A DNA stretch of 64,000 nt from Cryobacterium sinapicolor (lineage in GTDB: Bacteria; Actinomycetota; Actinomycetes; Actinomycetales; Microbacteriaceae). Under the pieces are notes generated by a model, which did not search any database, was not told where the DNA came from, and worked only from the letters and a program-made list of their open reading frames with translations. Location: assembly GCF_004403465.1 (NCBI RefSeq), contig NZ_SOGQ01000030.1:7175-71174 (forward strand), given 5' to 3'. How positions within the stretch are numbered: the stretch's first letter is position 1; each line of letters opens with the position of its first letter. Below are positions 16,136 to 50,371 of the stretch, one piece after another. Made by a program: the position numbers and the translations under genes.

Positions 16136-16599
16136 GCATCGGGCACGCCACCGGTCGGTGAACCCTCATCGGCCGGTGGTCTCCCGCAGCGGCCAGCGCT
16201 GACTGTGCCGCGGGGCGCTGTCCATCACTGCGGCCAGCGGTGCAGAAATGGACCGTGTCCGCGGGCGAACCAATTCGACGGAGATTCTCGGGTGAAACTG
16301 CCATTTCGGGGTTTCCAGGGTCGATTTCGGCAGAATCTCCGTCGAATTCGTTCGGGCCGTGGGGCGGAGCGAGCGGCGGTCCTGGACCGCACCGGTGCTG
16401 CTGCACGATCGCTGGGGGCCGACGCGGGAGGTCCGTGCAATCGGACCGGACATCCGTGCGGTGCGCCCAGTGGTCCGCGGCGGCCGGTGAAAGTGGGCGT
16501 CGGATGTCCCGAGTCAGCCACATTCGCCACCTCCGAGCCGCCAATCCGCGGGCCCTCATCTTCGGGTGGTGGGGAGGCCTCCGCGAGCGGAGTTCGCGG
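16136..16599. other. 464-bp intergenic region between convergent secA and the Rv3235-like gene
   Basis: No open frame here has a plausible protein. The only clear structure is the first 87-bp palindromic element. The rest (16354-16599) is featureless GC-rich sequence by eye. Confidence 0.6.
16267..16353. repeat. 87-bp palindromic element, copy 1
   Basis: The outer arm AATTCGACGGAGATT (with GAACC in front) is mirrored at the right end, closing with TTCGTTC. This copy has a C-G pair at arm positions 21/67 where the other four have T-A, a compensated change. An inner GAAAC/GTTTC stem is present. It lies between convergent genes. Confidence 0.9.
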
Positions 16600-17040
16600 T
16601 CACAGCACGTTGATGGCGCTGGCCCGCCAGCGTTGGTCCATGCCCTCCAGTCGCAGGGCCACGGCACGGACCCGCACCTTGCTGTGAACCATCACCACGG
16701 CCTCGATCACACCGTCTCGCGGCTCGGAAATCGTGACTCGGCCGATCGTGAACGCGGGTCGCTGGGCCTTCTGCCCCTTGACGGCGCGTGCCCGCGCGGA
16801 GAGCACGACGCGTTTCAGCAGGTGCCGGTAGACGTCGTCGCTGACCCACCGGGCGAGCTGGTCGAGCTCGCGGGCACCGGCGAGCACCTCGATCACGCAG
16901 CGGGTGAGGTTGATCAGCAGCGGTTCCGGGTCGGGCAGCTGGTCCCGGGTGCTCGGCTGGTGGCCGAAGAAGTCGTCCTCGACGAATTTGTTGTCCCGCG
17001 ACCGGGGGTGGCGTGCCGGGGTGGCGGCTGGATCGCTCAT
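16600..17040 (-). CDS. Rv3235-family hypothetical protein
   Basis: This 146-residue soluble protein has a disordered N-terminus (about 1-40), then a compact domain with LLINLTRCVIEVLAGARELDQLARW and RPAFTIGRVTISEPRDGVIEAV. It resembles the Rv3235 family, found near secA in actinobacteria. Function unknown. GGAGGAG lies 3 bp before the ATG and supports this start. Confidence 0.75.
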   Translation of the reverse strand: MSDPAATPARHPRSRDNKFVEDDFFGHQPSTRDQLPDPEPLLINLTRCVIEVLAGARELDQLARWVSDDVYRHLLKRVVLSARARAVKGQKAQRPAFTIGRVTISEPRDGVIEAVVMVHSKVRVRAVALRLEGMDQRWRASAINVL

Positions 17041-17250
17041 GACTCCTCCGAGGTGCGTGAATCCGCTGCCGGCGGCACACCTGCCGCGGCATTCGGGTGG
17101 TTCAGGGGTTCGGGTGGATCCGGCGTTCGGCAGAGCAGTCGTTCGGCGGAGCGGGCGTGCGGTGAGCGTCGGGCACCCCCGCGTGGGGGGTACGGGCTGT
17201 CATCGACACTCAACCAGCCGAGAACGGCCGTGTCGAGTGCTTATAAGTCC

Positions 17251-17259
17251 TGTGGATAA
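17251..17259 (+). promoter_or_regulatory. Perfect DnaA box
   Basis: TGTGGATAA is the exact complement of the DnaA box TTATCCACA. It overlaps the GTG start codon of the following gene, just downstream of a TATAAG (17242-17247) that could be its -10. Confidence 0.45.
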
Positions 17260-17944
17260 CCTGGACCGGGTGTCGGCCCTGCGGGATAACGTCGAGAATG
17301 TGCGCTGGGACAACCTGTTCGACGACCTCGAGGGGCAGCTCGAACACGAGCTGCACGCCGAGGAGATCGATCTGCGCGCCGAAGAAGAGCGGCTGCGGCT
17401 GGGGAGGCTGTCCCTGCGCAACCGATTGACCAGCCTCGCACGGGCCCCCGGCGTCGCGGCGGAGGCCCGGAGAGGATCCCAGGCTCGCAGCGGGCCGGGT
17501 TCCGGCACGGGGGTCCTGCGGATCGTGCTCGCGACGGGGGAGACGATCGCGGTGCGGCCGACCACGTTCGGGCGGGACTGGTTGGCAGGTGATCTGCTGG
17601 ACTCCCTCTCCGCCGGTTCCCAGTGCGTGCTCCCGCTGGCCGCCGTGGCGGGGGTCGTCCTGAGCCGGGGGGAGATTCCCGGCTCGCTGGGCACCGAGCC
17701 CGAATCCGCAGCCCGGGTCGTGGACCGTATCGGTCTGGCGTTCGTGCTGCGGGACCTCTGTCGGCGGCGCTCTACTGTGCAGGTGCACACTCGTGCCGGT
17801 GTTCTCCCCGGCACCATCGACCGGGTGGGCAGGGACCACATCGACCTCGCGCTGCACGCGCCGGGCACCCTGCGCCGTGAAGCGGAGGTGCACCAGTACC
17901 GCATCGTGCCGGTGGCCGAGATCCAGCTCGTTCGGCTGCCCTGA
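17252..17944 (+). CDS. Hypothetical protein with coiled-coil N-terminus
   Basis: From GTG 17252 the protein has 230 residues (VDNLDRVSALRDNVENVRWD). Residues 15-60 are strongly charged and helical (LEGQLEHELHAEEIDLRAEE), suggesting a coiled coil. The rest is a small beta-rich domain with IVLATGETIAVRPTTFGRDW and VHTRAGVLPGTIDRVGRDHIDLAL. No family is recognised with confidence. An opening from 16904 covers promoter sequence and is rejected. The TATAAG four bases before the GTG suggests a near-leaderless mRNA. Confidence 0.7.
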   Translation: MDNLDRVSALRDNVENVRWDNLFDDLEGQLEHELHAEEIDLRAEEERLRLGRLSLRNRLTSLARAPGVAAEARRGSQARSGPGSGTGVLRIVLATGETIAVRPTTFGRDWLAGDLLDSLSAGSQCVLPLAAVAGVVLSRGEIPGSLGTEPESAARVVDRIGLAFVLRDLCRRRSTVQVHTRAGVLPGTIDRVGRDHIDLALHAPGTLRREAEVHQYRIVPVAEIQLVRLP

Positions 17945-18332
17945 CCCTCTGCTGTGCCCCTGTGCCCTAAGCCGCCGGTCAGCCAGGTGTGCGGGTCCTG
18001 GTGGCCGCGGGCATGGTGGTCCGAGGACTGGCGGCTGCATGGCGGTTGCGTGGCGGTTGCTGCCGAGGCGGGGCGGACGAATGGCGGACCGCGACGAGGG
18101 GGACGTGCGCTTCCGCCGTGGCATTCGAGGCTCGGCAGCAGTTCTGTTCCGAACGAATTCGACGGAGATTTTGCTCAGAACAGGGCGCTTTCGCTCGAAA
18201 ACGGATGGTTGCCCCAAAATCTCCGTCGAATTGGTTCAACGACGGGCACGGCGCCGGCCTGGGATCGACGGCGTCCACGCGGGGCGGTCTGCCCTGACAG
18301 GGGAGCGACACAACCACGCGCTGTGGACTCAG
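17945..18332. other. 388-bp intergenic region between convergent genes
   Basis: It contains the second 87-bp palindromic element. I see no gene. The sequence around the element is GC-rich and without clear terminators. Confidence 0.6.
18151..18237. repeat. 87-bp palindromic element, copy 2
   Basis: The arms begin GAACGAATTC and end TTGGTTC, with AATTCGACGGAGATT and its complement intact. The interior differs from copy 1 and contains a short CTTTCG/CGAAAA stem. It lies between the ends of two convergent genes. Confidence 0.9.
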
Positions 18333-18677
18333 TCAGCTGGCCGGTGAGTCGTCGGGACGGATGATCGTGCCGCCGGACAGCTCCGGGATGTTCCCGAAGT
18401 CAGACTCCTGCCAGAGTGACATGCGCCGGGCCTCCTCGTACTTGGCCTCGATGAAGGACTCGAGCACGATGCGTTCGACCCGCCATACACCCGCGCCGCC
18501 GGAACCGATCATGGCGGCCCCGCCGGCCGGGGTGCCCCGGGTGCCGAGCCGGATCGCCGGCAGCTCGCCGGTGCGCACCAGCTCCAGCACCTCGGCCGCC
18601 GTCAGCGACAGGATCTCCGCGGTGTCGGCCAGGGTGAGGAACCGGCCCACAGCGGAGGCAGCCTCGGAATCGTTCAT
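18333..18677 (-). CDS. Small helix-turn-helix (excisionase/MerR-type) DNA-binding protein
   Basis: A 114-residue protein. Residues 12-45 (RFLTLADTAEILSLTAAEVLELVRTGELPAIRLG) form a winged HTH of the excisionase/BldC type. The C-terminal half (VWRVERIVLESFIEAKYEEARR) is helical. The partner DNA is unknown. It is divergent from the SAF/CpaE-like operon. GATAAT (18684-18689, minus strand) lies 6 nt before the ATG, so the mRNA may be leaderless. Confidence 0.75.
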   Translation of the reverse strand: MNDSEAASAVGRFLTLADTAEILSLTAAEVLELVRTGELPAIRLGTRGTPAGGAAMIGSGGAGVWRVERIVLESFIEAKYEEARRMSLWQESDFGNIPELSGGTIIRPDDSPAS

Positions 18678-18683
18678 GGATCG

Positions 18684-18689
18684 ATTATC
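18684..18689 (-). promoter_or_regulatory. -10 element of the HTH gene (leaderless type)
   Basis: GATAAT on the minus strand is six bases from the ATG at 18677, the spacing expected for transcription starting at the start codon. Confidence 0.4.
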
Positions 18690-18726
18690 CGTCGGCCGGC
18701 GGCCCCGGATCAGGGGGGAGTGAGGC

Positions 18727-18735
18727 TGTGGATAA
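18727..18735 (+). promoter_or_regulatory. Second perfect DnaA box
   Basis: TGTGGATAA, identical to the box at 17251, lies in the divergent region between the HTH gene and the SAF operon. Confidence 0.45.
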
Positions 18736-18814
18736 CTTTCCCGCGTGGGGGGCGAAGACCACCACGATAGAGCAAGTGACGGTTTTCTCGGGTCACCCGG
18801 GGTTTCGAGTCCGC

Positions 18815-18894
18815 GTCATCGAGCCAGGCCATCGAGTCAGGCCATCGAGTCAGGCCGTTGCGTCAGCAGTGTCGGGTCAGCACCATCGAGTCAG
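18815..18894. repeat. 13-bp direct repeats upstream of the SAF gene
   Basis: Four contiguous 13-bp units (18815-18866; best form GCCATCGAGTCAG) are followed by two related 14-bp units to 18894. They end 20 bp before the SAF gene start. They look like iterons, possible regulator sites. Confidence 0.75.
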
Positions 18895-18914
18895 TACGGG
18901 GGAGGCAGGCGACC

Positions 18915-19547
18915 GTGAGCAAGACCGCCGGGAACGCACGACGTAAATTCTGGTTCGACCCGCGATTCGCGATCGGGCTGGTGCTCGTGGTCGTCGCCGT
19001 CGGGGGCGTCTACCTGATCGTCTCCGCCGCCGACCGGACAACGGCTGTGTTCACCGCGCGGTCGGCGCTCGCTGTGGGGGACCGAGTGGAGGCATCCGAT
19101 CTGGTGCCCACGCAGGTGCGTCTCGGTGGTACGGGAGATCTCTACGTGACCCCCGACCGGCTGCCGGACGGCGGGCTGATCGTCACCCGCACGATCGCCG
19201 CCGGCGAACTCGTACCGGCCTCCGCGGTCGGGCGCGCCACCGGCACCGAGGTCACGAGCGTCGTCGTGGAGTTGACGAGTGCCCTGGCCGCGAATATCGG
19301 CCCCGGCTCCGTGGTCGACGTCTGGTCCGCCCGCAAGACCGATCAGAGCACGTTCGGGCCGCCGACGGTGCTCGTCGACCGGGCCGCGGTCGTGCGCCTG
19401 GTCGAGCCCACGGGGCTCGTGGCGGGCGGCGGCATCCGGTCATTGGAGATCCTGGTGCCCAAGGGCTCCGTCGCGGCGGTGCTGGAGTCCATCGCGAACC
19501 GCGACGCGGTCGCGGTCGTGCCCGTCAACGAACCGCTGGAGAAGTAG
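18915..19547 (+). CDS. SAF domain protein (CpaB/RcpC-like)
   Basis: From GTG 18915 (VSKTAGNARRKFW) the protein has 210 residues. There is one N-terminal membrane helix (FAIGLVLVVVAVGGVYLIVS), then a SAF domain (FTARSALAVGDRVEASDLV, GLIVTRTIAAGELVPASAV) and a C-terminal domain like the RcpC/CpaB family, which takes part in Tad/Flp pilus assembly. GGGGGAGG upstream supports the start. The next gene is a CpaE-like ATPase three bases away. No other Tad genes are in the window. Confidence 0.8.
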   Translation: MSKTAGNARRKFWFDPRFAIGLVLVVVAVGGVYLIVSAADRTTAVFTARSALAVGDRVEASDLVPTQVRLGGTGDLYVTPDRLPDGGLIVTRTIAAGELVPASAVGRATGTEVTSVVVELTSALAANIGPGSVVDVWSARKTDQSTFGPPTVLVDRAAVVRLVEPTGLVAGGGIRSLEILVPKGSVAAVLESIANRDAVAVVPVNEPLEK

Positions 19548-19549
19548 CC

Positions 19550-20806
19550 GTGGCCACCCTCGCGCTGGCCCTCGACCGGAACACGGAAGACCGTCTGCTG
19601 ATCGACATCATCGAGCAGGGCCATGTGATCGTGGCGCGCTCGACGACCGCAGGCGAGCTGATCCTCGCCCTGCGGCAGAGCGCGCCCGAGGTGGTGATCG
19701 TGGGGGCCGGCCGCAGCACGCTCACGGCCGAGCTGATCACCGCCTGCGACGCCCACGGCGCCCGGGTGATCGCGCTCGCCGCAACCGACCAGGACCGGCG
19801 GAATGCGGCCGGGCTCGGGCTCTTCGATGTGGTGGACGCCGCCGCCGACTGGTCCGAGACTGAGGCGCTGATCAGCACCGGGGTCACCATTCCGCTGCGG
19901 GTCGGCGATCCCGCGGCCGTGCCCGGAGCCAAGCGGCAGGGCAGGGTCATCGCCGTCTGGGGTCCGGCGGGCGCCCCGGGCCGCACCACCCTGGCGATCA
20001 ACATCGCGGCCGAGATCGCCGCCGCCGGGCACACCGTCGCCCTGGCGGACATCGACACCTACAGCGGGTCGGTGGCGCCGAGCCTGGGCATGCTCGACGA
20101 GGCGCCGGGTTTCGCCGCCGCGTGCCGGTTGGCCGGCTCGGACAGCCTGACCCGGTCCGAGTTCGAGCGCATCGCGCAGCGCTACAACTCGCCGCAGGGA
20201 GCATTCTGGGTGCTCACCGGCATCGGGCGGCCGTCCCGTTGGCCCGAGCTCTCCACCGAGCGGGTGACGCGCACCGTCGACGCCCTCCGCAACTGGGCCG
20301 ACTACGTCGTGCTCGACACCGGGTTCAGCCTCGAGAGCGATGAGGAGATCTCCAGCGACCTGTTCGCCCCGCGCCGCAACGCGGCCACCCTGACGGGCCT
20401 CGGACTGGCCGACCACGTCGTGGCCTGCGGCCTCGCTGACCCGGTCGGGATGGCCCGGTTCCTGCGCGCCTGGGTGGACCTGGCCGATGTTGTCACCACC
20501 GACCAGGTCAGCGTGGTCATGAACCGGGTACGCGCGAGTGCGGTCGGGCTGGATCCCAGCGGGCAGGTCGTGTCGGCGCTGCGCCGGTTCGGCGGCATCG
20601 AGTCGCCGATCCTGGTGCCGCAGGACCAGGCGTCCACGGATGCGGCGATCGTCGCCGGGCGCACGCTGCGGGATGCCGCGCCGAAGTCCCCGGCGCGCAC
20701 CAGCATCCGTCGCTTCGTGCGCACGGAACTGCTGCCGGTGCCCGCACCGGCTACGGGGCGCCGTCGCCGGGAATCGAGATGGCGCCGGCCCGCCGTGGCC
20801 ACCTGA
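19550..20806 (+). CDS. CpaE-like P-loop ATPase with Arg in place of the Walker Lys
   Basis: A 418-residue MinD/ParA-like protein. The N-terminal ~120 residues look like a receiver-type fold, as in CpaE. The P-loop reads GPAGAPGRTT (about 142-151), with Arg where the family has the catalytic Lys and no upstream signature Lys. VALADIDTYSGSVAPSLG provides the switch region. CpaE proteins localise pilus assembly. The altered P-loop may alter or abolish ATP hydrolysis. It forms an operon with the SAF gene. Confidence 0.75.
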   Translation: MATLALALDRNTEDRLLIDIIEQGHVIVARSTTAGELILALRQSAPEVVIVGAGRSTLTAELITACDAHGARVIALAATDQDRRNAAGLGLFDVVDAAADWSETEALISTGVTIPLRVGDPAAVPGAKRQGRVIAVWGPAGAPGRTTLAINIAAEIAAAGHTVALADIDTYSGSVAPSLGMLDEAPGFAAACRLAGSDSLTRSEFERIAQRYNSPQGAFWVLTGIGRPSRWPELSTERVTRTVDALRNWADYVVLDTGFSLESDEEISSDLFAPRRNAATLTGLGLADHVVACGLADPVGMARFLRAWVDLADVVTTDQVSVVMNRVRASAVGLDPSGQVVSALRRFGGIESPILVPQDQASTDAAIVAGRTLRDAAPKSPARTSIRRFVRTELLPVPAPATGRRRRESRWRRPAVAT

Positions 20807-20839
20807 GCCGCCGTCGACTCGGGTGGCCGTGCGAGCCGC

Positions 20840-22537
20840 TCATCCCTGGAGCGGGATCACCTCGACCCGGTCGCCGGGGCCGGTGACGACCAGCACGCGT
20901 TTTCCGGTCACGCCGGTGAGGGCCCGGGCCAGCTGCTCCGCCGTTGCCGAGCTGCCGGCGCCGTCAGCGCGCTTCAGCACGGAGACGGCCGCGCCGCCCG
21001 TGGCCGCGCCGATCGCCTGGCTGAGGGGTTCCGGGTCGGCATCCGTGACCAGGATCACCCGGCCGACGGTGCGGGCCTGTTGCGGGGCCTCCGCGCTCAC
21101 GGCGCGGTCCCGTCGCCACACGGCGAAGTGGTACCCGGCGGCGAGGCCGGTGGCGACCAGCAGCCCCAGTGGGGCCCGCACCCGGTCGACCAGGCTGTCC
21201 CCGGTGAAGTCGCCAAGGGCGAATTCGAAGAGCCGATAGCCGATCACCAGGAGAGTGACGATCGCGACGACCGCGCTCACGCCGAAAACCAGGATCAGGT
21301 AGACCCGGCGTCCCGTGGAGCGGACCTCCGCGGCGGTGGGCGGCTTCGTCGGCTGCCAGGCCATCCACCAGACCGGGCCGCCGACGACGAGGGCGCTGAT
21401 ACCGCCCAGCAGGAGGGTTCGGGTGTCCGACCCGGCGAGCGGCGTGGTCGTGGCGGCGAGGATCGCGTTCACGACCACGCCCAGCCCGGAGGCCGCGGCC
21501 ACGAGACCCACACCGGAGGTCACGAGCTTCGTCGCCACCCTCGCCTGGTCCGACCGGGCCAGGGCCAGGCCGCGGTGGTAGCTCCAGATCAGCGCGCCGA
21601 TCGCGGCGGCGGAAATGCCGAAGCCCAGCAGGCCGAGGATGTCGGGGACCGGGTCGGTGCGGTCGACGGCGAGTCTGAGCAGCAGGAAGAGCACGGTTCC
21701 GGCCCCGCTCAACGTCAGGATGGCAGCCCCGGTCACCCCGACGGCGACCAGTGCCAGATCGGCGAGGCCGCCGCGCAGGTCGCGGGCCCGGCTGCGGATC
21801 CAGTGCCACCACCAGACGACCAGCCCGCCGGCGAACCAGATCAGTGCCTGGACGGTCAACTCCCACCAGGGTGCGCCCTGGGTGAGGGTCGGTGCGACGG
21901 CGTCGACGGCGGCATCGAGCAAGGAACTGAGCGCCGTGACGCCGCCGCCCACCGCGATCACGAGGCCGAAGACGGAACCGAGGACCGGGGCCACGGTGAC
22001 GAGCCGGGTGGGGCTCTTCTCCCGGTGCCGGGACATCCACAGGTGCCAGCCCCACACGCCGGCCCAGACCACGCCGGTGGCGAAGAGACGCGGTTGCCAG
22101 TCCCCGCGCACGAGCACGGCCGCCGTGGTCAGCAGGGTGCTGCTGAACGTGACGAGGGAGACCATGTACAGGCCGGCCAGGTAGAGACCCCAGGCGACGG
22201 ATGACCGTTCCGCGCCGTCCATCCGTCGCCACAGCACCCACCAGAGCACGGCGGCGAACGGACCGGCGATGAGGGTGAACGCGAGCGAGCGGGCGAGCCC
22301 GGTGACGTCGCTGGAGGCGAGCGCGTTGCCGGCGTCGAGGAGGCGCCCGAGTAGTCCGCTCACCCCGATGGCGGCGATCACGACCAGTGCGAAGAGCAGA
22401 ACGTACACGATCACCCGGCGCACTGTGGGCTGGGCCGCGCTCTCCCCGTGCGGCGACGATCTACGCACCGCGATCACGGTGCCGGCGATGCCGCCGCCGA
22501 TCACGAGGACGGCGACCAGAAGCACCACGCTGACCAT
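20840..22537 (-). CDS. DUF5671 domain polytopic membrane protein
   Basis: The protein has 565 residues with about 12 hydrophobic segments. The repeated pattern VRRVIVYVLLFALVVIAAIGVSG (near 38) is typical of DUF5671. A soluble C-terminal piece (VGRVILVTDADPEPLSQAIG onward) ends the protein. Function unknown. Its ATG overlaps the stop of the upstream small lipid-anchored or membrane protein by one base (TGATG), so the two genes form an operon. Confidence 0.78.
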   Translation of the reverse strand: MVSVVLLVAVLVIGGGIAGTVIAVRRSSPHGESAAQPTVRRVIVYVLLFALVVIAAIGVSGLLGRLLDAGNALASSDVTGLARSLAFTLIAGPFAAVLWWVLWRRMDGAERSSVAWGLYLAGLYMVSLVTFSSTLLTTAAVLVRGDWQPRLFATGVVWAGVWGWHLWMSRHREKSPTRLVTVAPVLGSVFGLVIAVGGGVTALSSLLDAAVDAVAPTLTQGAPWWELTVQALIWFAGGLVVWWWHWIRSRARDLRGGLADLALVAVGVTGAAILTLSGAGTVLFLLLRLAVDRTDPVPDILGLLGFGISAAAIGALIWSYHRGLALARSDQARVATKLVTSGVGLVAAASGLGVVVNAILAATTTPLAGSDTRTLLLGGISALVVGGPVWWMAWQPTKPPTAAEVRSTGRRVYLILVFGVSAVVAIVTLLVIGYRLFEFALGDFTGDSLVDRVRAPLGLLVATGLAAGYHFAVWRRDRAVSAEAPQQARTVGRVILVTDADPEPLSQAIGAATGGAAVSVLKRADGAGSSATAEQLARALTGVTGKRVLVVTGPGDRVEVIPLQG

Positions 22538-26242: not shown

Positions 26243-26329
26243 TAACGAATTCGACGGAGATTTTGGCTCACACACCTGTTTGTGAGCCCGAACGCACCTT
26301 TCGGAGCAAAATCTCCGTCGAATTTGTTC
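26243..26329. repeat. 87-bp palindromic element, copy 3
   Basis: The outer arms are intact except for T at position 1. The interior folds into two hairpins: GGCTCACA (26265-26272) with TGTGAGCC (26281-26288), then CGAA with TTCG. Together with the outer stem this gives a three-way junction. Confidence 0.92.
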
Positions 26330-26354
26330 AGGCCAGCGGCCAGGCCAGCGGCCA

Positions 26355-26450
26355 GGGGCCAGGCCGGGGCCGGGGGCGAGGGCCGGGGGCCAGGCCGGGG
26401 CCGGGGGCGAGGGCCGGGGCCGGGGGCCAGGCCGGGGCCGGGGGCGAGGG
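26355..26450. repeat. G-rich 28-bp tandem repeat, three copies
   Basis: Identical 28-bp units start at 26355, 26386 and 26423, built from GGGGCC, AGGCCGGGG and CGGGGGCGAGGG. GGCCAG-type repeats precede them from 26330. The many G-runs on the plus strand could form quadruplexes. The rsgA transcript would carry the C-rich strand as its 3' UTR. Confidence 0.85.
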
Positions 26451-26497
26451 GGCGGCTGCTGGGGTAGTGGGAGGCTGGGGGTGGTGGGTGACCGGGG

Positions 26498-36362: not shown

Positions 36363-37874
36363 ATGAATGAGTGGGTCATGCTCGCCGCGGGGCTCCTCCT
36401 CACCGTGGGCACCGGCCTGTTCGTCGCCAGCGAGTTCGCTTTGGTCAACCTGGACCGGTCCGAGCTGGAGGCCCGCCGCGACCGAGGCGAGACCCGTCTG
36501 GGTCTGACCATCGCGGCGCTCAGGATCACGTCGACGCACCTGTCCAGCGCGCAGCTGGGCATCACCCTCACCACCCTGCTCACCGGCTACACCATGGAGC
36601 CGGCCCTGACCACGCTGCTGTCACCGCCGCTGACGGCCCTGGGGCTCTCGCCGGCAATCGTGCCGGTCGTCGCGGTCACGACCGCGCTCCTCGTCGCCAC
36701 ACTCGCCTCGATGATCATCGGCGAGCTGGTGCCGAAGAATTTCGCCCTGGCCCTGCCCGTGCAGACGGCCAAGCTCGTCATCCCGTTCCAGACTCTGTTC
36801 ACGACCGTGTTCAAGCCGGCCGTCGTCGTGCTCAACGGCAGCGCCAACGCGGTGCTGCGGTCGATCGGGATCGAGCCGAAGGAAGAACTCTCCGGGGCTC
36901 GCACCGCCGAGGAGCTGTCCTCCCTCGTGCGGCGCTCGGCCAGTGCCGGCCTGCTGGAGAAGGACACCGCCACGCTGTTGCACCGGACGCTGCTCTTCTC
37001 CGGGCACGCCGCCTCGGATGTGATGACTCCCCGCCCCCGGGTGGCCAGCATCCAGCGCACCGCCTCCGCGCAGGCCGTGATCGACCTCACCCGCCAGACC
37101 GGGTATTCCCGCTTCCCCGTCGTCGACGAAGGCGTCGACGACATCGTCGGGATCGTGCACGTGAAGCAGGCGGTGGCCGTGCCCCGGCACCGCCGGGCGG
37201 ATGTCCCGGTGTCGGCCCTGCAATCCGAAGCCATCCGGGTGCCCGAGACCATGAAGTTGGATGGCCTGCTGGTCGAGTTGCGCGGCCGTGGTTACCAGAT
37301 GGCCGTCGTCGTGGACGAATACGGGGGCACGGCCGGCGTGGCCACCCTCGAGGACCTGGTCGAGGAACTCGTCGGTGAGGTCGCCGACGAGCACGACCGC
37401 ACCCGCGCCGGCGTGGTGCTGTCCACGGACTCCCTGACGTTCCCCGGCATGCTCCGCCCGGACGAGCTGCTCGAACGCACGGGCATCTCTATTCCGGAGG
37501 ACGGCCCCTACGAGACCGTGGGCGGCTTCGTGATGAGCGAGCTGGGCCGCCTGCCACAGCTCGGCGACGCCGTGCAGCTGACCGGCGGCGTGCTGTCCGT
37601 CGAACGCCTCGACGGCCGACGGATCGACCGGCTGCGCTTCACCCCCTTCATCGAGCCTGCCGAACCCGCCGAACCTGCCGAACCCGCCGTGCTCGACGCG
37701 CCTGCCGCGGGTGACCGCAGCACCGGGAACGGCAAGAAGCCCGACAAGAAGCCTGGCAAGAAGAGCGACACGAAGAGCGACAAGAAGAGCAACAAGAAGA
37801 GCGACAGGAAGAGTGACGCCCAGGGTGACCGGAAGACGAACGACAAGCGGCATGAGGTGAGCGACCATGAATGA
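36363..37874 (+). CDS. CNNM/CBS/CorC-HlyC domain membrane protein with Lys-rich tail
   Basis: From ATG 36363 ([13 protein letters not shown]) the protein has 503 residues. The CNNM membrane domain (about 1-195) is followed by two CBS motifs ([30 protein letters not shown]), then a CorC/HlyC transporter-associated domain (about 350-430). The last ~60 residues are EPAEPAEPA and repeated KKSD units, a disordered basic tail. The family handles divalent cations such as Mg2+ or Co2+. The end overlaps the next gene by 8 bp. Confidence 0.88.
37755..37826 (+). repeat. Lys-Ser/Asp codon repeat in the CNNM tail
   Basis: A run of imperfect 12-bp units of the type AAGAAGAGCGAC encodes KKSD, KKSN and RKSD. 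It is inside the coding sequence and likely expands by slippage. Confidence 0.75.
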
Positions 37875-42620: not shown

Positions 42621-42707
42621 GAGCAAATTCGACGGAGATTTTGGGTCAAACACCCGTTTTTGAGCCCAAAGACGGTGTTCTGAGCAAAATCTCCGTCGAA
42701 TTCGTTC
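42621..42707. repeat. 87-bp palindromic element, copy 4
   Basis: The left end is GAGCAAATTC and the right end TTCGTTC. The interior is related to copy 3: GGGTCAAA pairs with TTTGAGCCC with one bulge. It lies between two genes on the plus strand, 34 bp after the thiamine-binding gene and 28 bp before the MFS start. Confidence 0.9.
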
Positions 42708-42735: not shown

Positions 42736-44013
42736 ATGCCTGCTTCTTCTGACGGGTCGGCGACACTGTCGCCGGCCCGCATCCGTTATGCCCTGCTCGC
42801 CCTGGCTCTCGGTGGATTCGGCATCGGGTCGACCGAATTCGTGGCCATGGGACTGCTGCCCGACCTGGCCCAGGACCTCCTCCCCGCGCTCTACGCCTCC
42901 TCCCCGGATGCCGCCAACGCGCAGGCAGGCTGGCTGATCACGGCGTATGCCCTCGGCGTCGTCGTCGGGGCCCCGACGATCGCCGCGGCAGCCGCCCGCT
43001 GGCCGCGCAAACAGCTGCTGCTCGCCTTGCTGGCCGCGTTCACGCTGAGCACCATCGCATCGGCGCTGCTGCCTACGTTCGGGCTGGTTCTTGCGGCCCG
43101 GTTCGTGGCCGCACTGCCGCACGGCGCCTATTTCGGGATCGCCTCCCTGGTGGCGGCCGACCTGATGGGCCCCGGCAAGCGGGCCCGCGGCGTGGCCCTC
43201 GTGCTCGGCGGCCTGACCATTGCGAACGTCATCGGCGTGCCCTCGATCACCTGGCTCGGCCAGACATCCGGCTGGCGGGTGGCCTACCTCGTCGTCGCCG
43301 CCATCTTCACGGCGACGTTCGTCGCCGTGGCCGCCCTGGTGCCTCTGCAGGACGGCAACCCTCAGGCCACCATGCGCAGTGAGCTGCGCGCCTTCGGTCG
43401 GGTGCAGGTCTGGTTCGCGCTGGGCATCGGCGCCGTCGGGTTCGGCGGGCTCTTCGCCGTGTACACCTACGTGGCCCCGCTGGTGATGGAGGTCACGGGC
43501 CTCGGAGCCGGCGCGGTCCCGCTCGTGCTGGTGGTGATCGGCGTGGGCATGACGATCGGCAACTTCATCGGCGGCGCGCTGGCCGACCGGAGCGTGCGCC
43601 GCAGCATGTACGGCTTCTTCGTCGTGATGCTGCTGGCCCTGACCGGGCTGGCTCTGTCGGCCGAGTCCGTCCCCGGACTGCTGATCGGCGTGTTCTTCGT
43701 CGGCGCCGCCTCGTCGGCGTTGTCGCCGACGATCCAGACCCGGCTGATGGACGTCTCCCACGACAGCCAGTCGATCGCCGCGGCGCTGAACCACTCGGCG
43801 CTCAACGTCGGCAACGCCCTCGGGGCGTTCCTCGGCGGTCTCGCCATCGCGGGCGGCCTCGGCTACGTCGCCCCGGTCTGGATCGGCCTGGGCCTGAGCG
43901 GCCTCGGCCTGCTGCTCACCGTGGCGACGTTCCTCGTGGACCGTGTCCGGCGGGGCAACAGGGTGGAGCTGCCGTACGGCACCGCGGCCATCCGGGTGGT
44001 CGCCGCGGAGTAG
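42736..44013 (+). CDS. MFS transporter, DHA1 family (AraJ-like)
   Basis: The 425-residue transporter has 12 predicted membrane helices. The first loop GFGIGSTEFVAMGLLPDLA and helix-4 region FVAALPHGAYFGIASLVAAD are typical of the DHA1 drug/sugar efflux group. The substrate cannot be told from sequence. The gene precedes a convergent response regulator. Confidence 0.88.
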   Translation: MPASSDGSATLSPARIRYALLALALGGFGIGSTEFVAMGLLPDLAQDLLPALYASSPDAANAQAGWLITAYALGVVVGAPTIAAAAARWPRKQLLLALLAAFTLSTIASALLPTFGLVLAARFVAALPHGAYFGIASLVAADLMGPGKRARGVALVLGGLTIANVIGVPSITWLGQTSGWRVAYLVVAAIFTATFVAVAALVPLQDGNPQATMRSELRAFGRVQVWFALGIGAVGFGGLFAVYTYVAPLVMEVTGLGAGAVPLVLVVIGVGMTIGNFIGGALADRSVRRSMYGFFVVMLLALTGLALSAESVPGLLIGVFFVGAASSALSPTIQTRLMDVSHDSQSIAAALNHSALNVGNALGAFLGGLAIAGGLGYVAPVWIGLGLSGLGLLLTVATFLVDRVRRGNRVELPYGTAAIRVVAAE

Positions 44014-44030
44014 CCGCGAGGTTTCGCGGC
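44013..44030. terminator. Bidirectional terminator hairpin
   Basis: GCCGCGA pairs with TCGCGGC around a GGTT loop, starting at the last base of the MFS stop codon and ending 9 bp before the convergent regulator gene. Confidence 0.5.
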
Positions 44031-44038
44031 GCGGGGGG

Positions 44039-44725
44039 TCAGTCGCCCTGGAGCAGGATGCCGTCGTGGATGGCGCGCTTACGCAGGGCGACCTTGGTAC
44101 CCACGTCGAAGCCCGCGAGACGGTACTTCTCGCGGATGCGCTTGAGATAGCTCTTCGCGGTCTCCTCGGAGATGCCGAGCTGGTGCGCGACGGCCTTGAC
44201 CGGCTCGCCCGCGCCGTAGAGGGCCATCACCCGGCGCTCCTGCGCGCTGAGGCGAGGTGAACCGCCGTTCGCGCCGTTGTTGAGGGCTTCGTCCAGTTCG
44301 GCCGAGATGAAGGATTCGCCGTCATAGGCGGAGCGGATCGCCTCGACGATCATCGTCGCCTCCTCGCTCTTCACCAGGTAGCCGAGTGCGCCGGCGGCCA
44401 GCGCCTCGCGCACGAGCCCGGCCTCGGAGTAGGTGCTCATCAGCACGGTCTTCACGCCAGCCGTCTTGAGCGTCGAGATCTTCAGGGAGACCGGAATGTT
44501 GTCTTTGAGGTCGAGGTCGAGGAGCACGACGTCGACGGGAAATTCGGGGTGGGTGAGCAGCTCGGGCCAGGTGGTGACGGCGGCGACCATGTTGATGTCG
44601 TCCGCGGCCCCCCGGATCCACTCGGTGAGGGCCCCCAGCAGCATGCGGTGGTCGTCGACAAGGGCCAGCCGGATGGGGTTGTCCTTGCTCGGTGCGGCAG
44701 TGCTCAACGTGGTTATGTTCGTCAC
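44039..44725 (-). CDS. NarL/FixJ-type response regulator
   Basis: The 228-residue protein starts at GTG with AAGGAG 8 bp upstream. The receiver domain has LALVDDHRMLL and the phospho-acceptor Asp in VVLLDLDLKD. The LuxR-type HTH at the C-terminus is RLSAQERRVMALYGAG to EETAKSYLKRIREKYRLAG. It is the third gene of a unit with a histidine kinase and a kinase-like membrane protein, which are its likely partners. Confidence 0.9.
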   Translation of the reverse strand: MTNITTLSTAAPSKDNPIRLALVDDHRMLLGALTEWIRGAADDINMVAAVTTWPELLTHPEFPVDVVLLDLDLKDNIPVSLKISTLKTAGVKTVLMSTYSEAGLVREALAAGALGYLVKSEEATMIVEAIRSAYDGESFISAELDEALNNGANGGSPRLSAQERRVMALYGAGEPVKAVAHQLGISEETAKSYLKRIREKYRLAGFDVGTKVALRKRAIHDGILLQGD

Positions 44726-44785
44726 TTCTGTCTCCTTGTGCTTCTGGCCCCGACTGAGAAGCTCAACAGCGTTGTTCGACGGACC

Positions 44786-46078
44786 CTAGGCATCCGCAGG
44801 ATTGTCGATGCTGCACTCGATTTCCACGTGCAGACTTCCGTCTCGGCTGGAATCGACGTGCGGGCCGACTACTCGGATAGCTTGCCACGTCTCGGGGTCC
44901 ACTCGACGCCGTGGCACACCCGTCGTCGCCAATTCGATCGGAAATCGTAACTTCTGGCGTGCGGTGACGCCGTGCGTGGGCCGGATCGGTCCGAGAGAGA
45001 GTGAAACGGATGCCTCAGCGCGAGTTGTGTCGCTGATCAGCAGCCAGATCGTGCGGAGCAGGGCGTCGCGCTGGTCAGGGTCGAGCATGCCGGCCAGCCC
45101 CGCCGGATCGTGCAGGCTGACAGACGGTCCGAGGAACTCGGACTCGGTGATCGCGTGGTGCAGCCAGGTCTCCCGGCGGCCTCGGATCAGGTGCAGCCGC
45201 AGCTGTGTGGCGAGGGCTGCAGCCGTCGTCGACTTCTCGGGACTCAGCGGCAGTGCCGTGCGTCCCTTCGCGACGTCGTCGAGCAGGGTCTCCGCGTCGA
45301 GGTCGATGCGGGCGAGTTCTTCGGAGGCGAACATCCCCACCGCGAATTGCGGCTGGGAGATGGTGCTCTGCACCAGCACCAGGTCGAGCTCGCGCTGGGT
45401 CATCCGGCGGAAGCCCCGCACCGTGGCCACGCCGAGCAGCGGAGGCAGGATGGCGAGGCTGATCGTTAGGAGATCGGGAGCGAAGGTGAGTGGGTCGGCC
45501 CGTTCCTCGGTGAGCGCTCCGAGGAAGAGCAGCACGCCGAGCGCCATCGCGGCGAAGACGACGTCGCGGCCTCGGCGCACGGTGGCCAGCGAGATCAGCA
45601 GGGTGCCGACGGCAGCGGCGGCCGTCGGGTAGACGCCGGAGCCGGTCTCGCCCCAGGACCCGATCAGGTCGAGCGCCGCCACGGCGGCCCCGGCGGCGAG
45701 GGCGGTGGCGAACAGCCAATCCGGCATCCGCGCCGAAAGGCGCTGCACCGTGATCAGCGACAGGACCGTGGTCGTCAGAAGGAGAACCCAGGCGATGAGG
45801 CTGGGCGTCGGGTCGGGATACTCGCCCCACTGCACCGCGAACTGCCCGAACAGGAACAGGGCGATGAAACCGCCGCTGAACGACAGGCCGATGCCAAGGT
45901 GGCGGCCGCCCAGGCCGCTCTGATTCGCCCGCGTGGTCTGCTCGGTGCGTTCGGGGCGTCGAAAGCTGCGCCGGCGCTCCCGGCGTTCCTGGCGGTCCTG
46001 AGTGCCCGGTTGGTCGGGCGCGCCCGCGGCCCGGCGCACGTCACGGCTGCGGGTGTCGACGATGCCGGGGTCGGTCAT
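44786..46078 (-). CDS. Membrane protein resembling a degenerate histidine kinase
   Basis: The 430-residue protein has an N-terminal charged segment (1-65), six hydrophobic segments (about 70-235) and a ~190-residue cytoplasmic domain. By position and length this domain mirrors the neighbouring kinase, but it lacks a clear phospho-acceptor His and the N and G boxes. LLRTIWLLISDTTRAEASVSLSLG stands where the ATP-binding helix would be. It overlaps the kinase gene by ATGA and precedes the regulator. A role as a kinase partner or sensor subunit is inference. Confidence 0.65.
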   Translation of the reverse strand: MTDPGIVDTRSRDVRRAAGAPDQPGTQDRQERRERRRSFRRPERTEQTTRANQSGLGGRHLGIGLSFSGGFIALFLFGQFAVQWGEYPDPTPSLIAWVLLLTTTVLSLITVQRLSARMPDWLFATALAAGAAVAALDLIGSWGETGSGVYPTAAAAVGTLLISLATVRRGRDVVFAAMALGVLLFLGALTEERADPLTFAPDLLTISLAILPPLLGVATVRGFRRMTQRELDLVLVQSTISQPQFAVGMFASEELARIDLDAETLLDDVAKGRTALPLSPEKSTTAAALATQLRLHLIRGRRETWLHHAITESEFLGPSVSLHDPAGLAGMLDPDQRDALLRTIWLLISDTTRAEASVSLSLGPIRPTHGVTARQKLRFPIELATTGVPRRRVDPETWQAIRVVGPHVDSSRDGSLHVEIECSIDNPADA

Positions 46079-47244
46079 TTGGGCACCTCGAGCACGACCG
46101 TGGTGCCCGAGCCGGGGGAGGAGAAGAGCCGAGCGTTGCCGCCCACATCGCGCAGGCGGGCCACGACCGACTCGGCGAACCCGAGGCGTTCGGCGCTGAC
46201 CCTGCTGAGATCGAATCCGACCCCCGCGTCGGTGACCATGGCGCGCACGGTCGTGTCGTCATCCGTGATCGTCACGTCGGCGCGGGCGACGCCGGCGTGG
46301 CGTCGCACATTCTCGAGGCACTCGCCGAGCGCGAGGAGGAAGGAGTCGAGCACATCGCTGGGCAGGAGAACCTGGCCGCTGCCGTGCCAGTCCACGTCGA
46401 GGCCCATCCGCCCGAAGCGCTGCTTGACCGATTCCAGGGTGCTGCCGAGCATCGACTCGGTGGCCGGCTCGAGCGTGTATACCCCGGAGCGGCGCGGGGT
46501 GGGAAGACCGCCGAGCCGTAGCTGCCGCAGCAGCCGGGCGTCATCGCCGGCCTGCTGGCGGAGCGCGGCCGGGCTGACGCCGACACCGGAGTGCGCGAGC
46601 AGGGTGAGGGTGGCCAGCACGGTGTCGTGCAGCAGCCGGGCATCCTGCCGGCGTTGGGCTTCGAGCTCGCTGGCATGGCGCTCGGAGAGGTGGGCCCGTC
46701 CGATGAAGGAGATGCGCGCCATGACACGCGGCACGCTCTGGGCCAGCCACCAGGCCACCAGGGTGATCGCGAGCCAGATGCTGAGGGTGAGAAGGAGCGG
46801 CACAGTGGTGTCGGACGAGGCGCGGGTGGCGGCGATCACGCCGGCGACCGTCGCGCCGAAGGCCGCAAACAGAACCAGGCGGCGGGAGGCGCTGACCACG
46901 AGCACGAGGGCGACGCAGCTCAGGGCCCCGGCGGCGATTCCGCCGATGACCGCCTGCTCGACCAGGTTCAGGCCGGTGGCACGCCGGCCTGACCAACCGA
47001 CCAGCAGGATCACGGCGATGCCGGAGAACAGGATCAAGGCGACCCAGCGCATCCGCCCGGACCGGCCGAGCAGGTACTGGCCGGCCACCAGCAACAGCAG
47101 CAGCGGCAGGCTCCGGGCGAGGGTGCTGACGGTCAGGCCGCCCGGGACGAGCATCGCGAGGAGTGCGGCGGCCGAGCCGGCCAGGCCGCACAGGCGAGCC
47201 GCTCGGCGAAGCAGACGGTTACGTTCCTTGTAGATGCGTTGCAT
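46075..47244 (-). CDS. Sensor histidine kinase (HPK7-like, NarX type)
   Basis: The 389-residue kinase has five or six N-terminal membrane segments (about 12-185), then a HisKA_3-like region with ARLLHDTVLATLTLLAHSG, and a HATPase with ECLENVRRHAG, DAGVGFD and SPGSGTTVVLEV. It is the first gene of a three-gene unit with a kinase-like protein and a NarL-type regulator. The stimulus is unknown. A TATAGA -10 lies upstream. Confidence 0.88.
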   Translation of the reverse strand: MQRIYKERNRLLRRAARLCGLAGSAAALLAMLVPGGLTVSTLARSLPLLLLLVAGQYLLGRSGRMRWVALILFSGIAVILLVGWSGRRATGLNLVEQAVIGGIAAGALSCVALVLVVSASRRLVLFAAFGATVAGVIAATRASSDTTVPLLLTLSIWLAITLVAWWLAQSVPRVMARISFIGRAHLSERHASELEAQRRQDARLLHDTVLATLTLLAHSGVGVSPAALRQQAGDDARLLRQLRLGGLPTPRRSGVYTLEPATESMLGSTLESVKQRFGRMGLDVDWHGSGQVLLPSDVLDSFLLALGECLENVRRHAGVARADVTITDDDTTVRAMVTDAGVGFDLSRVSAERLGFAESVVARLRDVGGNARLFSSPGSGTTVVLEVPK

Positions 47245-47270
47245 AGCGGCGGCTTCATCCCTCTTGGCCC

Positions 47271-47276
47271 TCTATA
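47271..47276 (-). promoter_or_regulatory. -10 element of the histidine kinase operon
   Basis: TATAGA on the minus strand, 27 bp before the ATG at 47244, is followed by an AGAGGG ribosome-binding site. Confidence 0.4.
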
Positions 47277-47375
47277 CAGCACCCTACCTGCCCGGCGTCG
47301 GTTCCCCGGAGCGGCCCGCGGCATCCGTCGGCGCCTGCCCTGCCGGAAGCGTCCTTGGTGGGCACGGGCCGCCGG

Positions 47376-48854
47376 TCAGGGCATGCTCGACGGCGGTCCG
47401 CCGGCGGGCGCAACGGATGCGTCAGACGCGGCGGGTGCTGCCGGTGTGATCTGGGCGCGCGCCGGGGTGTCGCCGCCGCCCTGGTCGAGGCGGAACGGTG
47501 GGTACTCGTCGCGGAACAGGGCGGTGTAGACGGTCACCCGGAAGATCCAGCGGTTGATGCCGAGGATCAGGTCGAACAGGCTGCGCCGGTACCGGCCGGT
47601 GAAGAGGAGGATGACGGCGGCGACCAGCACCAGCACTCCGATCAGGGAGGGGGCGGTGTTCGAGATCCAGTCGTCCCCGTCATAGCGCCAGGTCGTCGCG
47701 CTACCGGTGAAGGCCGCCACGATCACCAGGTGCGGAATCGCCAGCAGCCACCACTTGACCAGGACGAGCCCGTGCGAGAGCCGCTGGGGGTAGTCGACCT
47801 GCAGGTCTGCGGGGTAGTCGGCCGACGAGGTCAGGCTGAACGGCGGGTACCGGTCGGTGCCGAGCGCCGAGTAGGCGTAGAAGGAGACCCGCCAGCTCCA
47901 GCGCAGCACGCCGACGTTGAACTGGAAGATGGCCGTCGGGTACCGGCCGGTGAACAGGATCGCGAAACCGGCGACGATCGTGGTGACGAAGAACCCGAAC
48001 CACAGGAACAGCAGCACGACCACGTGTGGGAAGATCAGGATCCACTTCACCAGCCACAGCCAGCGGGACAGCCCCTCGTCGAGGGTGCCGGTCAGCCGGG
48101 CGGGGAAGATCCGCTCACCGGGAGCGGTCGGCACCGCGGCGGCGCCGGGGGCGCTCGCTCCGACGGGGGTGCCGGGTGCCGCGCCGGGGGCGGGCGGAGT
48201 GCCGCGGCCCAGCCCGATGGCCCCGAACACGGTCAGCACCAGGCCGGTCAGCAGGATCAACAGGCCGACCAGCAGCAACCCGACGGCCAGCGGGCCGAGG
48301 AACGCGAAGCGCACGCCGGCCTGCAACGCGACGGAGACGCCGGGACTCGCATCCGCGTTCATCACGACGACCGCCCACCTGCCGCTCGTCAGATCCCAGT
48401 CGATCTGCTGGGTGCCGGAACCCTCGGCGGATGACGCCCAGAAGTCCTGGTCGCCGGGGGCTTCGGGGGTGCCGCTACCCGGGATGTCCCGATAGACCGC
48501 ACGGAAGGGGCTGATGTCCAGGTTGCGCAGCTCGGTGTGATTCACCCCCGCCAGGTAGCGGTCGACGTCGGCCTGGGGCGCGATGCCGATGAAGACGTCC
48601 GCGGCGGAGGTGGAGGCCGCGCGGAGCCGGACGCCGCCGATCTCCGCCGGCACGTCCTGGATCTCGATCGAGCCCATGCGGGGCGAGGTGAGCGCGTACG
48701 TCTGCACCGAGAACGAACGGGCGGGGCTGGTGAGGTAGCCGTCATCGTCCTGCGCGTTGACCACGGCGGCCGTCGCCCCGGCGATGGCCAGCGAGAAACC
48801 GAGCAGGGAGAGGATCGCCCCGAAGATCAGCATGATGACGAAACCGGGTTTCAT
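47376..48854 (-). CDS. DUF4389 domain membrane protein
   Basis: From ATG 48854 (MKPGFVIMLIFG) the protein has 492 residues. A membrane helix (about 3-28) and an extracytoplasmic domain (30-190) precede a second helix. Two DUF4389 repeats follow: WLWLVKWILIFPHVVVLLFLWF with FTGRYPTAIFQF, and VLVKWWLLAIPHLVIVAAF with FTGRYRRSLFDL. Function unknown. The C-terminus is Pro/Ala-rich. The long opening to 48902 lacks support; GAGAGG precedes 48854. Confidence 0.82.
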   Translation of the reverse strand: MKPGFVIMLIFGAILSLLGFSLAIAGATAAVVNAQDDDGYLTSPARSFSVQTYALTSPRMGSIEIQDVPAEIGGVRLRAASTSAADVFIGIAPQADVDRYLAGVNHTELRNLDISPFRAVYRDIPGSGTPEAPGDQDFWASSAEGSGTQQIDWDLTSGRWAVVVMNADASPGVSVALQAGVRFAFLGPLAVGLLLVGLLILLTGLVLTVFGAIGLGRGTPPAPGAAPGTPVGASAPGAAAVPTAPGERIFPARLTGTLDEGLSRWLWLVKWILIFPHVVVLLFLWFGFFVTTIVAGFAILFTGRYPTAIFQFNVGVLRWSWRVSFYAYSALGTDRYPPFSLTSSADYPADLQVDYPQRLSHGLVLVKWWLLAIPHLVIVAAFTGSATTWRYDGDDWISNTAPSLIGVLVLVAAVILLFTGRYRRSLFDLILGINRWIFRVTVYTALFRDEYPPFRLDQGGGDTPARAQITPAAPAASDASVAPAGGPPSSMP

Positions 48855-48977
48855 GGCGTGCGTCCTCTCCTCGGATACGTCTCGATTCAGGGTACGTCCC
48901 ATTCAGAGATTCGACTCGGTTCAGCGCGTTTTCGCTCCCTGACCTGCCTGTCAAGCTTGTCCCGATCGGAAACCGTG

Positions 48978-50204
48978 TCAAGCCCGGCGCGGGGGAGCGG
49001 GCGAGGTCAAGACGCGCCGCAGCTGGGTGCCGATGGCATCGTTCTCGATCAGAAAACCGTCGTGGCCGAAGCCGGAGTGGAGCGTGAATGCATCCGTGCC
49101 GTCGATGTTGCCCGGCAGGTGGGCGGCGATGACCCGTTGGCCCTCGAGGGGGAAGAGTCGGTCGCTGTCGATGCCGACGACGACGCTGAGCGCATCGATG
49201 CGGGCCAGGGCGGATGCGACGCCGCCACGGCCGCGGCCGATGTCGTGCGAGTTCATGGCCTCGACCAGCACGATGTAGCTGTTCGCGTCGAACCGCCGGG
49301 TGAACTTGTTGCCGTGGAAATCGAGGTAGGACTCGACGGCGAACCGTCCACCCGCGCCGAGGGGGCTGATCTCGCTCTGCCAGCCGCGCTCGAAGCGTAG
49401 GTTGAGTTCCTCGGGGCTGCGGTAGTTCAGCAGCGCCATCCGCCGGGCGAGGGCGAGGCCGCGGGTCGGGCCGTCGCCGTCCGCTGCGTCGTAGTAGTCG
49501 CCGGACCGGAAGAACGGGTCACTGCGGATGGCCTCGATCTGCACGGAGTTCAGCGCGATCTGGTCGGCGGTCGTCACCGGCGGCGCCGCGAGGATTGCCA
49601 GGCGGGCTACGCGGGACGGATGCTCGATGGCCCACTCGAGCGCGTGCATCCCGCCCATCGAGCCTCCGACGACCGCGGCCCAGCGGTCGATGCCGAGCCG
49701 GTCGGCGAAGGCGACCTGCGCGGCGACCTGGTCGCGAATGGTGAGGTAGGGGAACCGGGTGCCCCATTCGGAGCCGTCGGGCGCGAGGGAGGCCGGACCG
49801 GTGCTGCCCTGGCAGCCGCCGACCATGTTCGGGGCCACCACGAACCAGCGGTCGGTGTCGATGGCCAGGCCGGGGCCGACGATGCCGCTCCACCAACCCG
49901 CGGTCGCGTGGCCGTCGCCGGCCGGGCCGACCAGGTGGCTGTCGCCGGTGAGGGCGTGCAGCACGAGCAGGGCGTTGTCGCCGTTCGGGGAACGCTCACC
50001 CCAGGTCTCGTAGGCGATCCGCACGGCCCCGAGGGTGCCGCCGGCCTCGAAGTGCAGAGGGCCGACGTCGAGGAAACGGCGGTTTCCCACGGGATCGCCG
50101 TCGCGCCAGGCACCCGTCGCCGGGGGTTTGCCGAGAAGCGACCGAGCCTGGGCTTCGGTCACGAAGCTCGACGGGACGGTGTCTGCCGAATATTGCCAGT
50201 CCAT
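48978..50204 (-). CDS. metX: Homoserine O-acetyltransferase
   Basis: From ATG 50204 (MDWQYSADTVPSSF) the protein has 408 residues. It is an alpha/beta-hydrolase fold with nucleophile Ser in VVGGSMGGMHALEW, and the acid and His in IDSDRLFPLEGQ and GFGHDGFLIEND. It makes O-acetylhomoserine for methionine synthesis, the substrate of MetY encoded just upstream in the transcript. AGGGGG lies about 5 bp before the ATG; the in-frame opening to 50258 adds 18 residues without support. Confidence 0.93.
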   Translation of the reverse strand: MDWQYSADTVPSSFVTEAQARSLLGKPPATGAWRDGDPVGNRRFLDVGPLHFEAGGTLGAVRIAYETWGERSPNGDNALLVLHALTGDSHLVGPAGDGHATAGWWSGIVGPGLAIDTDRWFVVAPNMVGGCQGSTGPASLAPDGSEWGTRFPYLTIRDQVAAQVAFADRLGIDRWAAVVGGSMGGMHALEWAIEHPSRVARLAILAAPPVTTADQIALNSVQIEAIRSDPFFRSGDYYDAADGDGPTRGLALARRMALLNYRSPEELNLRFERGWQSEISPLGAGGRFAVESYLDFHGNKFTRRFDANSYIVLVEAMNSHDIGRGRGGVASALARIDALSVVVGIDSDRLFPLEGQRVIAAHLPGNIDGTDAFTLHSGFGHDGFLIENDAIGTQLRRVLTSPAPPRRA

Positions 50205-50284
50205 AGGCCCCCTATTCTGCCGGGTGGACAGCCCTTCCGGCGCTTTGTTACCGGACACGGCGGAGCCCGGTCAGCCCGCCGCCC

Positions 50285-50371
50285 GAACGAATTCGACGGA
50301 GATTTTGCCGATTTGGGCCGTAAACGGGCCGAAATCGAGGCTGGCGGCCAAAATCTCCGTCGAATTGGTTA
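50285..50371. repeat. 87-bp palindromic element, copy 5
   Basis: The arms GAACGAATTC and TTGGTTA flank an interior with a long imperfect hairpin, CGATTT (50309-50314) with AAATCG (50332-50337) and GGCC inside. Read in reverse, the interior shares ATTTCGG with copy 1. It lies in the metY-metX gap. Confidence 0.92.

Follow-up and report, generated by a model that had tools for sequence, protein, structure and literature searches.

The described systems closest to the element reported here are dispersed palindromic repeats. REPINs are inverted doublets of repetitive extragenic palindromic (REP) sequences that are duplicated by REP-associated tyrosine transposases (RAYTs); their two conserved ends are inverted and flank a short spacer of high diversity, and they are dispersed, extragenic and found in long-lived populations (passages on REPINs in PMC8049555). 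The CGTC-tagged REP unit consists of a CGTC tag and an 8-9 bp stem with a 4-5 nt loop, and its dimers stand head-to-head between convergent or codirectional genes, near 3' ends and without an associated transposase gene, some of them with spacers that are alike in length but not in sequence (passages on these dimers in PMC3733652). Enterobacterial repetitive intergenic consensus (ERIC) sequences are small (127 bp), intergenic, palindromic and of near-fixed length, and gyrase binds bacterial interspersed mosaic elements (BIMEs), as described in the relevant parts of PMC2267715. Here, we consider an 87-bp palindromic element that occurs five times in a 64,000-nt stretch of the actinobacterium Cryobacterium sinapicolor (Microbacteriaceae; contig NZ_SOGQ01000030.1, positions 7,175 to 71,174), hereafter the window, and many more times elsewhere in that genome and its genus. 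We give a roughly even chance to the reading that it is a REPIN- or REP-dimer-like element, the two arms of which would be bound by a putative protein across a bent 47-bp spacer.

The element shares the layout just described with REPINs, CGTC-tagged REP dimers and ERIC sequences, and it departs from each in construction. Specifically, the RAYT domain Y1_Tnp (PF01797) was found in none of 57 genomes of the genus (the control was positive in 5 of 14), GTAG occurs in just 3 of 176 arms, which are not GTAG-tagged hairpins, and the spacer, unlike that of REPINs, is near-fixed in length, phased at ~10 bp and free of hairpin covariation. The longest perfect stem inside one arm measures 3-5 bp in 158 of the 176 arms, in contrast to the 8-9 bp stem of the CGTC-tagged unit. 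Because single arms are not REP hairpins, we file the element under neither REPIN nor CGTC-tagged REP; in its working it comes closest to a REP dimer that has a bend built in. From ERIC sequences it is set apart by mirrored positions that do not covary. The initial annotation, made from the window alone, had suggested a REPIN-like mobile or structural element: its dispersed intergenic layout, its near-fixed geometry and the lack of any Rfam match at gathering thresholds in the window agree with that suggestion, whereas the RAYT-type TnpA that was proposed as its route, and a hairpin as the selected feature, found no support.

Our literature search, by titles and the opening lines of abstracts, found no account of the family, which is no proof of novelty, as most subscription journals lay outside it. 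The main text of PMC3733652 does not use the terms Actinobacteria, Microbacteri- or Clavibacter; in PMC7381226, on Cryobacterium genomes, "palindromic" appears in two places, both about clustered regularly interspaced short palindromic repeats (CRISPR); and PMC10969869, a review of prokaryotic miniature inverted-repeat transposable elements (MITEs), does not mention actinobacter- or RAYT.

Geometry and phasing of the element

All five copies that the initial annotation had placed in the window, at 16267-16353, 18151-18237, 26243-26329, 42621-42707 and 50285-50371, were recovered at 87 bp, none assigned to a strand, and every one of them carries the 15-bp inverted arms AATTCGACGGAGATT and reverse complement with 0 mismatches. 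The inverted arms extend over ~20 bp each, and their start-to-start distance is 62 bp, or ~six helical turns. A relaxed scan of the window, allowing up to 10 mismatches over the 30 arm positions and gaps of 45-58, returned 35 matches, 33 of which overlap the five known copies, and the 2 elsewhere have 9 and 10 mismatches; 20 shuffles gave 6 matches in total, all with 9-10 mismatches.

Across the C. sinapicolor genome (G000; 3.53 Mb in 96 contigs, other genomes being labelled G024, G065 and so on), arms with at most 2 mismatches number 131 forward and 132 reverse, against 0 and 0 for a reversed-pattern control. Exact arms at exactly a 47-bp gap define 82 copies, and 118 copies have at most 3 mismatches at that gap. 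Among 89 C. sinapicolor copies, 68 of which came from fixed-gap searches, the gap is 47 in 88 and 57 in 1; among the 21 taken from the window or from loci fetched through a single arm, where the gap was not fixed, it is 47 in 20 and 57 in 1. Loci from other Cryobacterium, for which the gap was left free between 32 and 62, gave similar values: gaps of 47 (90), 48 (7), 49 (1) and 57 (1) for 99 exact-arm copies, and of 47 (97), 48 (7) and 49, 54 and 57 (once each) for all 107, the single gap-54 copy having, as read by eye, an insertion within one arm. The rare longer copies with gap 57, 1 of the 89 and 1 of the 107, gain 10 bp. The 88-bp form is common in G065, where 30 exact-arm pairs have gaps of 47 (18), 48 (11) and 49 (1). 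Hence, the "exactly 87 bp" of the initial annotation describes a strong tendency and not a law, given that gaps of 48, 49 and 57 occur. Near contig ends, two loci (L005 and L017) hold one-armed half elements that run into unrelated sequence, as if another repeat had entered the spacer.

The spacer is organized in A/T-rich blocks, the centres of which fall near positions 29, 39, 49 and 59, with G/C blocks between them. The phase-locked A/T contrast is positive in 185 of 185 gap-47 Cryobacterium copies, with a peak period of 10.25 bp, and the mean periodicity power of interiors is 1.52; it falls to 0.24 when they are shuffled and is 0.18 in flank windows, which show no periodicity. Between copies, the mean interior identity (185 gap-47 copies oriented by likelihood) is 0.415, equal to the column-shuffled value of 0.415, and 5 of 88 C. 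sinapicolor copies have a paralogue at 85% identity or above. A polarity is nevertheless detectable. In 117 of the 185 copies (84 expected), one arm has G at base 5 where its partner arm has C, and when these 117 are oriented by that base alone, the leave-one-out identity of interiors to their consensus reaches 0.556, versus 0.523 for random and 0.425 for flipped orientation. Because base-5 orientation yields an interior consensus above that of random orientation, the elements are polar and of common descent. This weak shared consensus and the different sites in different clades point to an old dispersed family. The earlier description of the interiors as strongly divergent stands, whereas its view of them as not homologous was too strong in light of the weak polar consensus and the strict ~10-bp A/T phasing. 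In C. sinapicolor, the copies at C81:871 and C89:2134 share identical interiors, with C94:690 near-identical, possibly through segmental duplication.

Presence, loss and spread

Copies were detected in 21 of the 57 genus genomes, at 2 to 119 per genome (C. sinapicolor arm with gap 47 and at most 3 mismatches). To follow single sites, we compared the region of window copies 1 to 3 in 20 relatives, fetched through the neighbouring secA gene and not through the element. Site 1 is filled, with perfect arms, in G024, absent in 14 and unreadable in 5; site 2 is likewise filled with perfect arms in G024, absent in 17 and unreadable in 2; and site 3 is filled in G024, G075 and G025, absent in 11, including G066, and unreadable in 6. 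G066 groups with C. sinapicolor and G024 (~90% identity over the region) versus 82% to G075 and G025. Because C. sinapicolor, G024, G075 and G025 all carry site 3 and G066 groups with the first two, the site-3 element was most simply lost in G066, where reading by eye points to a deletion between two GCTAGTGG repeats. The elements at sites 1 and 2 may either have been lost in G066 or have been gained late by C. sinapicolor and G024. The three element-bearing intergenic regions measure 464, 388 and 313 bp in C. sinapicolor versus 12, 23 and 10 bp in G066 (L194), and the other intergenic regions of the secA region are of similar length in the two genomes. The site-3 regions of G026 (L210) and G006 (L202) contain short palindromes, CCGTCGAATTCGACGG and CATCGAATTCGATG, where C. 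sinapicolor has its element; these look like the outer halves of arms, and loss of an element may have left them as scars.

In G065, 36 copies were counted, and the 17 that were fetched have a mean interior identity of 0.543 (maximum 0.854) and stand at different flanks; G065 holds a subgroup that combines similar interiors with different flanks, the flanks being judged by eye. Copies occupy different sites in different clades.

Beyond Cryobacterium, a sequence-only model, which also carries a weak interior signal and scored at most 11 matches per genome, matched 20 of 398 family genomes, 4 of these in the genus, C. sinapicolor included. The exact core with a free gap occurs in 10 of the 398, and across the phylum in 1 of 396 genomes, namely C. 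sinapicolor itself. At 26 loci from other genera, model-found and thereby biased toward the C. sinapicolor length, the gap is 47 in 21, 48 in 3 and 46 in 2, one of the last two being probably a chance match. The A/T phasing falls at the same positions in 21 of 21 gap-47 copies of other Microbacteriaceae genera (power 1.43 versus 0.23), copies that were found by the model with its weak interior signal. Among the copies recovered, the arm sequence varies by lineage, and the spacing is kept: for example, the arms read AAAACGACGGAGATT in G139, AAAACGACGGTGATT in G087, CATATGGACGGAGATT in G277 and AAATCGAAGGGGATT in G391. In G139, searched with a free gap, all ten of the 34 places that were listed have gap 47, and arm pairs there also include gap 48, among the arms listed. 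At one G139 locus (L270, G139:C1:516592-517306), next to an element, the outer arm segment recurs three times in tandem at 18-bp steps.

A phage origin was considered and set aside: two IMG/VR contigs, of the same sequence over the stretch shown, match the core with gap 57, and by eye we judged this a chance match in a gene. Among plasmids, one element searched in distant mode gave no match.

Copies at gene ends

Gene context was called with a purpose-written codon-usage gene caller, and this calling confirmed that all five window copies are intergenic, two between convergent and three between codirectional genes. Copy 1 (arms 16272-16286 and 16334-16348, enclosing a 47-bp phased spacer) is flanked by the convergent secA and a DUF6459 gene, and copy 2 (arms 18156-18170 and 18218-18232) by a convergent pair of a gene without a Pfam hit and an HTH_17 gene. 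Codirectional genes flank the remainder, namely AhpC/TSA and RsgA genes for copy 3 (arms 26248-26262 and 26310-26324), thiamine-binding and MFS genes for copy 4 (arms 42626-42640 and 42688-42702), and alpha/beta hydrolase and Cys/Met pyridoxal phosphate (PLP)-enzyme genes for copy 5 (arms 50290-50304 and 50352-50366).

The 89 C. sinapicolor copies comprise 38 convergent, 37 codirectional and 10 divergent, with 4 at locus edges and 0 inside genes, and the 107 from other Cryobacterium loci comprise 43 convergent, 46 codirectional and 8 divergent, with 9 at edges and 1 inside a gene. Convergent, codirectional and divergent placements were observed at 38/37/10 versus 17/44/24 expected of 85 from the intergenic bases of the window, a small yardstick that itself includes five elements.

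Tandem repeats of 16-bp and GC-rich units adjoin two of the window copies, at 50373-50511 (element 5) and 26331-26458 (element 3). We dropped a link between such arrays and the elements: arrays were commoner in element-bearing intergenic regions in 5 of 6 classes, but the per-kb ratio was just 0.4-1.7. The window also holds a 21-bp tandem repeat near its start (20-124), and 12-bp repeats at 37727-37810 encode the lysine-rich tail of an open reading frame.

A proposed bound and bent site, and its alternatives

Each copy is a two-armed DNA site, with arms that are near-invariant at the three loci compared and a drifting spacer that carries A/T and G/C blocks in a ~10-bp register. In the reading we prefer, a sequence-specific protein would contact the two arms simultaneously, and the phasing of the spacer would let the DNA bend, so that arms closer together than the persistence length could meet in one complex. 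The element would be a non-autonomous repeat, copied around by a trans-acting enzyme, and its sites may still function at gene ends as nodes that are bound and bent. The lineage-dependent arms and constant geometry of the copies seen from other genera are what a change of binding protein would lead one to expect. Five comparisons of three C. sinapicolor sites, which are not independent in that site 3 enters three times, show differences at 2 of 150 arm versus 81 of 205 interior positions (Fisher p 1e-20), and in 263.5 kb from the 20 relatives, 5 copies have at most 1 arm mismatch, whereas no copy has 2 to 9. The arms thus look constrained at each locus, judging from these alignments, while spacers drift.

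Several points weigh against this bound-site reading. First, the constraint was seen at three sites only, chosen because C. sinapicolor carries the element there; a copy decayed past 9 mismatches would be scored absent; and a larger collection, 42 orthologous pairs of equal length (interior identity 0.67, arms 0.96, aligned flanks 88%), is biased, having been recovered through exact or near-exact arms. Second, G066 is without all three sites yet holds 19 copies, and therefore these sites cannot be essential. Third, no binding protein or mobilizing enzyme was found, PF01797 being the only domain tested for co-occurrence. Fourth, predicted static curvature is modest, supportive but weak (end-to-end over contour 0.929 versus 0.965 for shuffles, with 154 of 185 copies the more curved), and the phasing could partly be inherited, though paralogues sit at the column-shuffled identity. 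Finally, the arms pair far better than slid controls (73% of cells versus 31-50%), a difference expected of any inverted repeat, and in 60 of 88 C. sinapicolor copies the interior has a slightly better fold than its shuffles, which leaves room for some structure.

The alternative that survives best, unlikely though we consider it, is a purely selfish miniature transposon, in which the arms would be terminal repeats for a trans-acting transposase, the bend would be needed only for synapsis, and copies would lie idle at their sites. The hallmarks of MITEs are terminal inverted repeats, target-site duplication, an autonomous partner with the same ends and copies of one ancestor at many sites. Terminal inverted repeats are present, as are one-ancestor copies at many sites (the polar consensus and the G065 subgroup), and the occupation of different sites in different clades favours a transposon. 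Further, synapsis of ends 62 bp apart would need both the spacing and the bend, and the 3'-end and convergent bias also fits avoidance of promoters and genes. On the other hand, the arms of idle copies should decay like interiors, yet they differ far less at the compared sites. Target-site duplication was not found: 196 elements showed no clear excess, with small scattered excesses among 88 offset-length combinations (such as a 2-bp excess at one offset, 0.133 versus 0.072), and the 17 fetched G065 copies had no duplication of note. In G065 and G139, arms that face inward at distances of 1.7-3.8 kb seemed candidates for an autonomous transposon, but each fetched arm had a mismatched partner at element spacing. 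No autonomous copy appeared at the 11 lone-looking arms fetched (5 of the 29 lone arms listed in G065 and 6 in G139, among the 100 of 112 arms listed there).

Decidedly less probable is a strong wrapping site for gyrase or a nucleoid protein, like the BIMEs of Escherichia coli, that would absorb transcription supercoils at gene ends. The element resembles the gyrase motif and BIMEs in its phased G/C blocks and gene-end location, and its phased stretch of 47 bp is as long as each of the G/C-periodic regions in the 130-bp Topo-Seq gyrase motif (passages on the motif in PMC12393610). The enrichment between convergent genes would fit such a role, as would the even spread of exact copies (mean 1.06 and variance 0.78 per 30-kb bin; 34 bins on seven long contigs). 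However, in the motif as described there, two periodic regions enclose a central one, an order that is reversed in the element, with its aperiodic flanks, and a universal enzyme explains neither the 36 of 57 genus genomes without a detected copy nor near-invariant arms that are specific to lineages.

An RNA or single-stranded DNA hairpin (a terminator, an mRNA stabilizer or a hairpin-transposed element) with the stem as the selected feature is very improbable, because mirrored positions covary below shuffles and polarity ignores the direction of transcription. Copies do fold as long stable stems (z-scores between -4.6 and -9.7 for the ten folded strands) and lie downstream of genes, and the slight folding excess of interiors noted above points the same way. 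Against this, a covariation test on 50 C. sinapicolor copies and 37 mirrored pairs (16 of them invariant), which cover the arms and some of the interior, found pairing in 73.0% of cells versus 75.1% shuffled, and the observed covariation score was reached by 499 of 500 shuffles, that is, it lies below the shuffled expectation. Base 5 is anti-complementary between the arms, element polarity at codirectional sites runs 21 with and 22 against transcription, and Rfam is silent on the window, as already stated. Hence, a selected hairpin, which the initial annotation had offered as one form of the element, is unlikely.

Tentatively, and with less confidence than in the bound and bent site itself, the elements may belong to a dedicated DNA-bending site system of the Microbacteriaceae, in which a lineage-specific protein would hold arms six helical turns apart, with an intrinsically bendable 47-bp spacer between them, at tens to more than 100 gene ends, protein and arm would be re-coded together between genera with the geometry kept, and a mobile repeat would have been taken over for organizing the chromosome or transcription ends. 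Palindromic repeats usually confound DNA-protein geometry with RNA hairpins; these elements keep their spacing and helical phasing without compensatory stem changes, which therefore argues for DNA-protein geometry over an RNA hairpin. They are also a case of a repeat family that persists without a RAYT, and, with more than 100 copies available in nature and arms that other genera code differently, they make both the putative binding protein and the geometry it needs open to a direct search and test.

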